From: Nitrosomonas sp. Nm84
GTDB taxonomy: Bacteria > Pseudomonadota > Gammaproteobacteria > Burkholderiales > Nitrosomonadaceae
Assembly (NCBI RefSeq): GCF_003201565.1
Contig: NZ_QJJP01000001.1
Span: 1 to 64,000, forward strand
Direction: 5' to 3'
DNA: 64,000 nt
Shown here piece after piece: positions 21,943-24,544 of this stretch. The translations under genes were made by a program, and so were the position numbers. The first letter of the stretch is position 1; every line of letters begins with the position of its first letter. The notes under the pieces were generated by a model that was not told the origin of the DNA, made no database searches, and was given only the letters and a program-made list of their open reading frames with translations.

Positions 21943-23277
21943 CTATGTGTTAATCTGCTTGGCGAAAAGATCGTGCGTATCCGAATCCACAATCTCAACT
22001 TCAATGAAATCACCCGGCTGACCATGAGTCACTTGATCCACGTACACCAGACCATCGATTTCCGGTGCGTCGGCACTACTTCTGGCAACAACGCCATCCT
22101 CAGTCAATTCGTCAATCATCACGGTCATCCTTCGGCCTATTTTTGCGGCCAAACGTTGACGACTGATCTCCTCCTGCAATTGCATGAAACGCACACGGCG
22201 ATCTTCCTTGATATCCTCCGGCACAGGATCAGATAACTGGTTAGCCGTTGCGCCCGCCACCGGCGAATAAGCAAAGCATCCCACACGATCCAATTGCGCT
22301 TCCCGCAAAAATGCTAATAATTCCTCAAACTCCGCCTCAGTTTCACCCGGAAAACCCACGATAAAGGTACTGCGCAAGGTAATATCAGGACAGACTTGGC
22401 GCCATTGCTGAATGCGCGCAAGATTATTCTCAGCATTCGCCGGACGCTTCATGGCTTTCAGGATGCGTGAATTGGCGTGTTGGAATGGCACATCCAGATA
22501 AGGCAGTATTTTACCTTCCGCCATCAATGGAATCACTTCATCCACATGCGGATAGGGATAAACATAATGCAAGCGCACCCAGACCCCTAATGTGCCCAGC
22601 GCCTGTGCAAGTTCAGTCAACCTGGTCTTAACCGGTCTGCCTTGCCAAAAACCGGTACGATATTTCACGTCAACACCATACGCACTGGTATCTTGCGAGA
22701 TAATCAACAGCTCTTTTACACCAGCGTTTACGAGATGTTCCGCTTCCTGCATCACTTGATGAATCGGCCGACTCACCAGGTCGCCGCGCATTGAAGGAAT
22801 AATGCAAAATGTGCAGCGATGATTACATCCCTCGGAAATTTTCACATAAGCATAGTGTTTGGGCGTCAACCGGATTCCTTGGGGCGGTATCAGGCTGGTA
22901 TAGGGATCATGCGGCTGCGGTAAATGCGTGTGGATCGCGGACATCACTTCCGGCAGTGCATGCGGTCCGGTAACCGCCAACACTTGCGGGTGGGCTTTTT
23001 TAACGACATCACCATCCTCTTTGGCACCCAAACAGCCTGTGACAATGACTTTGCCATTTTCGGCCAGCGCTTCGCCAATAGCATCCAGCGATTCTTCCAC
23101 CGCACTATCGATAAATCCGCAGGTATTAACGACAACCAGATCAGCGTCTTCGTACGAAGGTGATATTTCATAACCTTCAGCTCGTAACTGTGTCAGAATT
23201 TGCTCGGAATCTACCAGTGCTTTTGGACAACCCAATGAAATAAAACCAACTTTTTGTGCAGTATGTTTAGATGACAT
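21943..23277 (-). CDS. rimO: Ribosomal protein S12 methylthiotransferase RimO
   Basis: A 444-residue radical-SAM enzyme that methylthiolates an Asp of ribosomal protein S12. The N-terminal UPF0004 domain has [10 protein letters not shown] and NTCGFID, whose cysteines bind one Fe-S cluster, with GCLGA providing a third Cys. The radical-SAM motif CNHRCTFC follows near residue 150, and the C-terminus is a TRAM domain. The ATG at 23277 ([12 protein letters not shown]) is chosen; an in-frame start further upstream would add a hydrophobic stretch not seen in the family. It is probably the first gene of rimO-earP-efp. Confidence 0.96.
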
Positions 23278-23398
23278 GTAAAAATAATTAAATAAGAATA
23301 TGATCCAGCTATTGAGCAAATACTGAATTTTATCTGATAACTGCCCATTACAATTTTTTATCTTCTAATACATTAGCAATTGGCAAAAAGGGAAAAAC

Positions 23399-23971
23399 AT
23401 GGATTATTTGCAAATCCGGTATATATTGAAAGTAATTCTATACTTGCTTATGCTCACACCAACGTCAGTATTCGCCCAGATTGATTGCGCGTCACTACCG
23501 CATTGGGCGACATTGAACAATGGATTGCAGATCAATCAACAGCATATTTTTTGTGGTGAATGGAGCCACAATCGCCCCAAAGGTTTTCATTCGCGACCTG
23601 GCGGCAACAATCCTTCGACCGTCGCACACCTGACCGTTCAAAGCAAACCCAATGCAGCGGGAATTTATACCAGTCGTTGGTCATATAAGGATCATTCGGA
23701 TAAAAACAAATTCTCATCCATGTTTCCGGACCATTGCACCCTCTCACAAGTGTTAAATTCCATCAGTTATGCAACGGCAAGTTCAAGCACAAAGTGCCCA
23801 TCTGGTTCTCCCGATTGGACGCAATGCGGAAAAAACAAACCTGAAAACAAATCTGCAGCGAATCAAGACGAGAACCTCCAATACTGCAGCAAAGATGGAA
23901 AGTTTTTTACCATCGGCTTTGCACCCGCCAAACAAGGCAAAATTAATACAGCATTTCCAATTTTCGAATGA
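23399..23971 (+). CDS. Secreted EndoU-type nuclease
   Basis: A 190-residue protein with a Sec signal peptide (hydrophobic core about 8-20, likely cleavage after TSVFA, residue 26). The mature part matches the bacterial EndoU pattern: QQHIFCGEW with His49, then GFHSRPGG with His64, the two expected catalytic histidines. Five mature cysteines or more suggest disulphides outside the cytoplasm. A good ribosome binding site (AAGGGA) precedes the ATG. EndoU RNases occur as effector domains of contact-dependent and other interbacterial toxins; here the domain is stand-alone. The downstream gene overlaps by 4 bp and may encode its immunity protein. Function inferred from motifs. Confidence 0.7.
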   Translation: MDYLQIRYILKVILYLLMLTPTSVFAQIDCASLPHWATLNNGLQINQQHIFCGEWSHNRPKGFHSRPGGNNPSTVAHLTVQSKPNAAGIYTSRWSYKDHSDKNKFSSMFPDHCTLSQVLNSISYATASSSTKCPSGSPDWTQCGKNKPENKSAANQDENLQYCSKDGKFFTIGFAPAKQGKINTAFPIFE

Positions 23972-24294
23972 ATGATCATCCTTTTACCTGGCCGGGGCAT
24001 CATCCCGATGAACCCACGCATCGCCTGATCATTGCTTATTTGACGATCGATATACAAAGAAGCCCAGAAGATGCGAGTGAACTGTCACAGAAAATCAGCG
24101 CTGTTCACTCCGGACAGCTTCCTGAATGGGAACGCATCGGTAATGCATACTGCCTGCGATTATTCCCGGATTATGTCGAAATTGAAGAGGACTTTGCAGA
24201 AGAAGGCGGAAAGCCTGAGAAAATTCCACTGACCACATTTAAAATGGCAGTACAGTCATGGCTGGAACACATCGCTGGTCAACAAAATAAATGA
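23968..24294 (+). CDS. Small cytoplasmic protein, possible EndoU partner
   Basis: A 108-residue acidic protein without signal peptide or membrane segment. Visible parts are THRLIIAYLTIDI (near 18), LPEWERIGNAYCLRLFPDYVEIEEDF (about 49-75) and a C-terminal helix VQSWLEHI. The layout (W-G-Y-L-V core, acidic loop) loosely recalls YacL-like proteins, but I cannot assign it. Its ATG overlaps the stop of the EndoU gene (ATGA), so the two are made together. A small acidic cytoplasmic partner of a secreted RNase fits an immunity protein. That role is inference from position. Confidence 0.6.
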   Translation: MNDHPFTWPGHHPDEPTHRLIIAYLTIDIQRSPEDASELSQKISAVHSGQLPEWERIGNAYCLRLFPDYVEIEEDFAEEGGKPEKIPLTTFKMAVQSWLEHIAGQQNK

Positions 24295-24319: not shown

Positions 24320-24544
24320 CTAATCAACGCCAACAAACCTTGCTGCATCAATAATCGACCACAGATGAAAAATTCCGCCAATGACTGCAGGAATAATCAG
24401 CACTGCGAAAAAGTAACCTACCCCGACGATGGCAAAAAATAAAATTGCCGCCAATATCCGCCCTTGCACCAGTTGTCCCAAACCAGGAATAAAAAAACTA
24501 CAAACCGCTGCAAGTACATTTCCACCAGATCCTTGCCCTGACAT
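24320..24544 (-). CDS. Small TM2-like membrane protein
   Basis: A 74-residue protein with two hydrophobic segments (about 8-24 and 30-64, the second probably a helical pair) joined by IPGLGQLVQGR, a turn typical of TM2-domain and related short membrane proteins. It ends WSIIDAARFVGVD, also common in that group. No function is known. It lies convergent to the EndoU pair and upstream of no other minus-strand gene in close range, so it is probably a single-gene unit. Confidence 0.65.
   Translation of the reverse strand: MSGQGSGGNVLAAVCSFFIPGLGQLVQGRILAAILFFAIVGVGYFFAVLIIPAVIGGIFHLWSIIDAARFVGVD

Follow-up and report, generated by a model that had tools for sequence, protein, structure and literature searches.

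The window analysed here, 64,000 nucleotides of the Nitrosomonas sp. Nm84 contig NZ_QJJP01000001.1 (positions 1 to 64,000), carries two overlapping genes on its forward strand that very probably encode an exported RNase of the EndoU family and a cytosolic inhibitor of that enzyme. The fuller claim, that the nuclease of this exported EndoU/inhibitor pair is used against other bacteria, is the account we favour, with moderate confidence; both statements are read from sequence. An earlier note on this DNA had proposed a pair of the toxin-immunity type, a proposal that is now strongly supported by the strict co-occurrence of the two genes, their co-divergence, their gain and loss as a unit and a link to EndoU toxins borne by Rhs proteins. 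Its description of the locus (two open reading frames with an ATGA overlap, a signal peptide, a two-histidine EndoU pattern and an acidic partner of 108 codons) was accurate throughout. The elements of the pair are as follows.

23399..23971, + strand: EndoU nuclease gene, 190 codons plus stop
23399..23476, + strand: predicted Sec signal peptide, residues 1-26 (LKVILYLLMLTPTSVFA followed by QIDC; predicted cleavage between VFA and QID), conserved in all relatives
Residues 27-190, + strand: mature nuclease domain, with six invariant cysteines
23543..23545, + strand: codon of catalytic His49 (NQQHIFCGEW), unchanged in all 19 close and all 38 diverse homologues
23588..23590, + strand: codon of catalytic His64 (KGFHSRPGG), invariant in the same 19 close and 38 diverse homologues
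23948..23950, + strand: codon of Thr184 (INTAFP), which by alignment with XendoU corresponds to the [ST] conserved in the second half of EndoU
23968..24294, + strand: partner gene, 108 codons plus stop; putative cytosolic inhibitor (immunity-type), UPF0231/YacL-like
23968..23971, + strand: ATGA stop/start overlap, kept in most Nitrosomonas loci and likely to couple translation of the two genes

The two genes are strictly associated. The nuclease gene occurs in 20 of 101 related genomes and the partner in exactly those 20, always adjacent; the hypergeometric probability of two identical sets of this size is ∼ 1.5e-21, ignoring relatedness. All 81 relatives without the nuclease also lack the partner subfamily. 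The relatives of the window genome belong to Nitrosomonas, and of the named loci that of Nitrosomonas sp. GRE_AOB_3 is nearest (L041, nuclease identity 92%). A wider scan of 84,980 species genomes yielded 72 loci with a free EndoU, and a profile recognized the partner in 61 of them, in 60 cases within ∼ 260 bp, on the same strand and just downstream. Outside the Nitrosomonadaceae, the family which shaped the profile, the partner was found at 29 of 39 loci. Evolutionary distances of nuclease and partner correlate beyond those of RimO, the product of a neighbouring gene (partial r 0.74, 0 of 2000 permutations), and physical linkage contributes to this correlation too. Both genes are under purifying selection, with ratios of non-synonymous to synonymous substitution (dN/dS) against the nearest relative of 0.14 for the nuclease and 0.17 for the partner (RimO 0.03). 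Linkage by chance or through a common operon history, with two proteins that do not interact, is very improbable given this co-divergence beyond RimO and the repeated pairing in different phyla and with carrier-borne toxins.

A putative role of the partner family in EndoU immunity is best supported by its place after EndoU toxins borne by Rhs proteins. Among sampled Enterobacteriaceae, an open reading frame of the partner family comes after six EndoU domains of the related type; four of the six are plainly Rhs C-termini (DPIGLAGGLNPYGYV... motif) and two sit on other carriers. CdiA-type EndoUs in the same sample have no partner-family neighbour. In a Proteus mirabilis rhs locus an orphan partner-family gene (L189:6037-6354) adjoins an Rhs C-terminal module that is itself an orphan, an arrangement seen in polyimmunity arrays. 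One of the Rhs-EndoU stretches (L118) was found in no Escherichia coli genome at the DNA level. In an EndoU tree (midpoint root, carrier EndoU domain ends cut by hand) the free EndoUs group together with support of 99/96, next to the Rhs-borne EndoUs and apart from the CdiA type; one residue of the L119 sequence was mistyped, and neither this nor the hand cutting is expected to change the main grouping.

Assignment of the nuclease to EndoU rests mainly on its sequence profile. The earlier note had called for a search against EndoU profiles, and the match to PF14436 (EndoU_bacteria) is clear (68 bits, E 1.4e-18, gathering cut-off 25.3). T184 is invariant among the 19 close orthologues and conserved in at least 90% of the 38 diverse homologues; all 19 close orthologues keep the six cysteines and a hydrophobic, signal-peptide-like N-terminus. 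The signal peptide itself was called by eye and with a hydropathy script. Structure prediction, also proposed in that note, gave a divided answer. The nuclease model is of moderate quality (predicted local distance difference test, pLDDT, 76; lowest confidence around the active-site loop), and because of this weakness Foldseek returned no match at E 0.001; a PDB search with the single sequence gave no match. VIA-align did retrieve BECR and EndoU folds as its best rows (Z 6.4 to 2.7), namely the CdiA toxin 7m5f_C (Z 6.4, root-mean-square deviation (rmsd) 3.1, 86 residues), described as having the BECR fold of RNases (PMC8616854), Nsp15 of coronavirus (Z 4.7, rmsd 5.1, 113 residues) and, lower down, XendoU (Z 2.7). 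The earlier note had taken the lack of an EndoU fold as fatal to its proposal; in that simple form the objection is not borne out, the family match being clear.

The partner is a divergent relative of UPF0231/YacL and not a filed member of the family, because homology is seen through its orthologues and by profile-profile comparison, while the window protein itself stays under the cut-off. Eighteen of 20 partner orthologues match PF06062 (UPF0231, YacL family; best E 8.9e-8), the window partner scores 17.4 bits against a gathering cut-off of 25, and the partner profile aligns with canonical YacL at 95% probability (E 2.6e-8). Foldseek found no match for the partner model at E 0.001; the partner profile searched against the PDB gave TPR-like chance rows only and no CdiI; PADLOC gave no match; and PHROGs gave a single weak match of unknown function for the window partner. 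Unlike the nuclease, the partner has no signal peptide by hydropathy and alignment. The mature nuclease is basic (isoelectric point, pI, 8.9; orthologues 7.8-9.3) and the partner acidic (pI 5.0; orthologues 4.3-5.6), and this opposition of charge holds in all orthologues.

These data are consistent with a model where the nuclease precursor would cross the inner membrane by the Sec pathway and fold outside the cytoplasm, and where its six invariant cysteines could form three disulfides. The partner, having no export signal, would stay in the cytoplasm, bind the basic nuclease and presumably block its active site. It would thus protect the producer both from precursor folded before export and from enzyme re-entering from kin. 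The nuclease would most likely be a weapon against bacteria without the inhibitor, a role that presupposes RNase activity, release through the outer membrane and entry into the target.

Several observations weigh against this account. E. coli YacL, a distant relative of the partner, binds RNA polymerase and NusG (PMC8196013), and 51 of the 398 proteobacterial genomes sampled carry UPF0231 genes, only two of the 51 also having a PF14436 gene. The partner could accordingly be a YacL-like, RNA-polymerase-associated transcription regulator whose place beside a nuclease is incidental or regulatory. We consider this quite unlikely, since the close subfamily is absent from 81 of 81 nuclease-less relatives, pairing with Rhs-EndoU is repeated, four of five class-level matches of the close subfamily adjoin an EndoU gene (the fifth, L116, is an orphan), and one enterobacterium (G741) has a canonical YacL plus a separate EndoU-linked copy. 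The orphan gene (L116:1342-1761) has no EndoU nearby and lies close to a two-component response regulator. The earlier note would have been undermined by a partner that occurs widely without the nuclease. In its simple form this objection does not apply: the subfamily to which the partner belongs is hardly ever seen without the nuclease, and what is common is a distant orphan branch of its superfamily, YacL. The polymerase role may be ancestral or YacL may be a domesticated inhibitor, and the evidence decides for neither. We tentatively suggest, as something short of an even chance, that UPF0231-like proteins are an inhibitor family, not named as such before, for one EndoU branch, free and Rhs-borne, and that YacL descends from such an inhibitor recruited to RNA polymerase. 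A free exported EndoU with this inhibitor would in that case be a secreted RNase weapon that crosses phyla and needs no carrier. No paper was found in which proteins of the UPF0231/YacL family are named as inhibitors of EndoU; Michalska 2018, the main paper on EndoU, lay outside this search.

Further points on the same side concern the partner fold and the exceptions to the pairing. The partner model aligns with CdiI-STECO31, an EndoU immunity protein (5hkq chain I), at Z 6.7 (rmsd 3.8, 93 residues), a value in the range that the tool calls common, with unrelated proteins scoring similarly or higher and a type VII secretion system chaperone ranking above it; we take the weak resemblance as a hint only. 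About ten related free EndoU loci have no recognizable partner, among them two from cyanobacteria, two from Thalassospira, one from Pseudoalteromonas and three from Pseudomonas. Other exceptions are a locus at a contig end, a truncated gene and a locus (L106) whose next gene resembles a divergent partner. Nitrosospira multiformis Nl18 carries a truncated EndoU remnant without a partner (L102:3983-4201). At the three partnerless Pseudomonas loci (L109, L111, L112) an open reading frame resembling an extracytoplasmic function (ECF) sigma factor lies on the opposite strand just after the nuclease.

The insertion site also bears on function. It is bounded by two genes on the reverse strand.

21943-23319, - strand: rimO, flanking the pair on one side
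24320-24544, - strand: gene of a small hydrophobic membrane protein of 74 aa, flanking the pair on the other side

The pair lies beside rimO in ∼ 24 Nitrosomonas loci. Every holder has the same EndoU at this site, which is otherwise empty: in eight genomes 76-274 bp separate rimO from the small membrane gene, and no open reading frame longer than 34 codons lies between. Two of the eight (G042 and G053) have a pair of another lineage at a different place in the genome. The pair is gained or lost as a whole unit. The 74-aa membrane protein gene adjoins rimO in many Nitrosomonas and marks the empty site. The pair lies ∼ 1.9 kb before a RuBisCO gene, and a simple scan found no intrinsic terminator.

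Stable vertical inheritance at the rimO site in many species of Nitrosomonas, with no toxin swapping, is unlike classical polymorphic toxins and counts against a weapon, as does the search for an exit route: no canonical type II secretin (GspD) scored above cut-off in Nitrosomonas, where only partial, uninformative ones were seen. Stable inheritance instead suits an enzyme of self-protected scavenging, that is, a periplasmic or extracellular RNase whose partner guards the producer cytoplasm from unexported enzyme, with no antagonism. Six cysteines fit a robust extracellular enzyme, and the EndoU-like nuclease All2314 is found in the Anabaena exoproteome (PMC10957091). We nevertheless regard scavenging as rather unlikely: the sister clade consists of carrier-borne Rhs-EndoUs with the same partner family, presence is patchy (20 of 101 genomes) with unit-wise gain and loss, and a simple scan, itself weak evidence, found no Pho-box upstream of the pair. 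The Rhs link and the patchiness of gain and loss modestly favour competition between bacteria.

Export of an EndoU without a carrier had seemed unusual to the earlier note; instead, the free EndoUs form a widespread, supported clade and their layout has a precedent in barnase-barstar. The 72 loci come from Nitrosomonas, Nitrosospira, Nitrosovibrio, Methylobacter, Desulfobacterales, filamentous cyanobacteria, a myxococcote, marine gammaproteobacteria, alphaproteobacteria and Pseudomonas, and these scattered taxa suggest horizontal transfer. In 71 of 71 assessable loci the protein is a free EndoU whose N-terminus is hydrophobic. The majority of these proteins carry six cysteines; others carry four or none. 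No plasmid record matched the nuclease. A lipobox-like LSAC or VAAC closes the signal peptide of four free EndoUs (L093, L095, L114 and L115), which suggests membrane-anchored lipoprotein versions.

If our interpretation is right, the pair would be an EndoU-based counterpart of barnase-barstar in Gram-negative bacteria and cyanobacteria. It would also connect toxin inhibition with UPF0231/YacL, a conserved but uncharacterized family, and provide a candidate antibacterial RNase for nitrifying bacteria.

Compared with polymorphic toxins, the nuclease is a free 190-aa protein and not part of a large multi-domain carrier; the downstream position of the partner gene and a family shared with Rhs-EndoU loci do fit, the immunity function being putative. 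CdiA-CT/CdiI of STECO31 likewise combines an EndoU toxin with immunity, and the partner fold is weakly similar (Z 6.7), but that toxin has a CdiA carrier and belongs to a distant EndoU clade, and the sequence profile of the partner does not pick up its CdiI. In Enterobacteriaceae, the EndoU toxins borne by Rhs proteins (L118, L158-L160) form the sister clade and are followed by a UPF0231-like gene; they differ in the fusion to an Rhs core and in a nuclease domain without cysteines and without its own signal peptide. E. coli UPF0231/YacL is homologous to the partner, but is an orphan that binds RNA polymerase and NusG. Ribocin (RbcN) of Pseudomonas aeruginosa is a free signal-peptide RNase of related fold; it is RNase A-like and directed at eukaryotic ribosomes, and the description consulted mentions no inhibitor gene. 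The closest EndoU precedent is MafB-MafI of the Neisseria maf islands, in which a uridylate-preferring EndoU RNase is secreted in a signal-peptide-dependent (Sec) manner, leaves the cell by a route independent of PilQ and is countered by an immunity protein that is encoded by the adjoining downstream gene and binds it directly (PMC4287609). In MafB the N-terminal region is long and the C-terminal domains are swapped, whereas the window nuclease is an EndoU domain only, with no swapping. In layout the pair matches barnase-barstar of Bacillus amyloliquefaciens, with a signal peptide on the enzyme and none on the partner. There a free secreted BECR-fold RNase is accompanied by a small intracellular inhibitor, barstar, which controls barnase inside the cell (PMC8837141) and protects the producer. 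Barnase is an N1/T1-type RNase, not an EndoU, and barstar belongs to another family; the pair described here is also set apart by its overlapping genes, by the six cysteines of its nuclease and by its hosts, which are Gram-negative bacteria and cyanobacteria.
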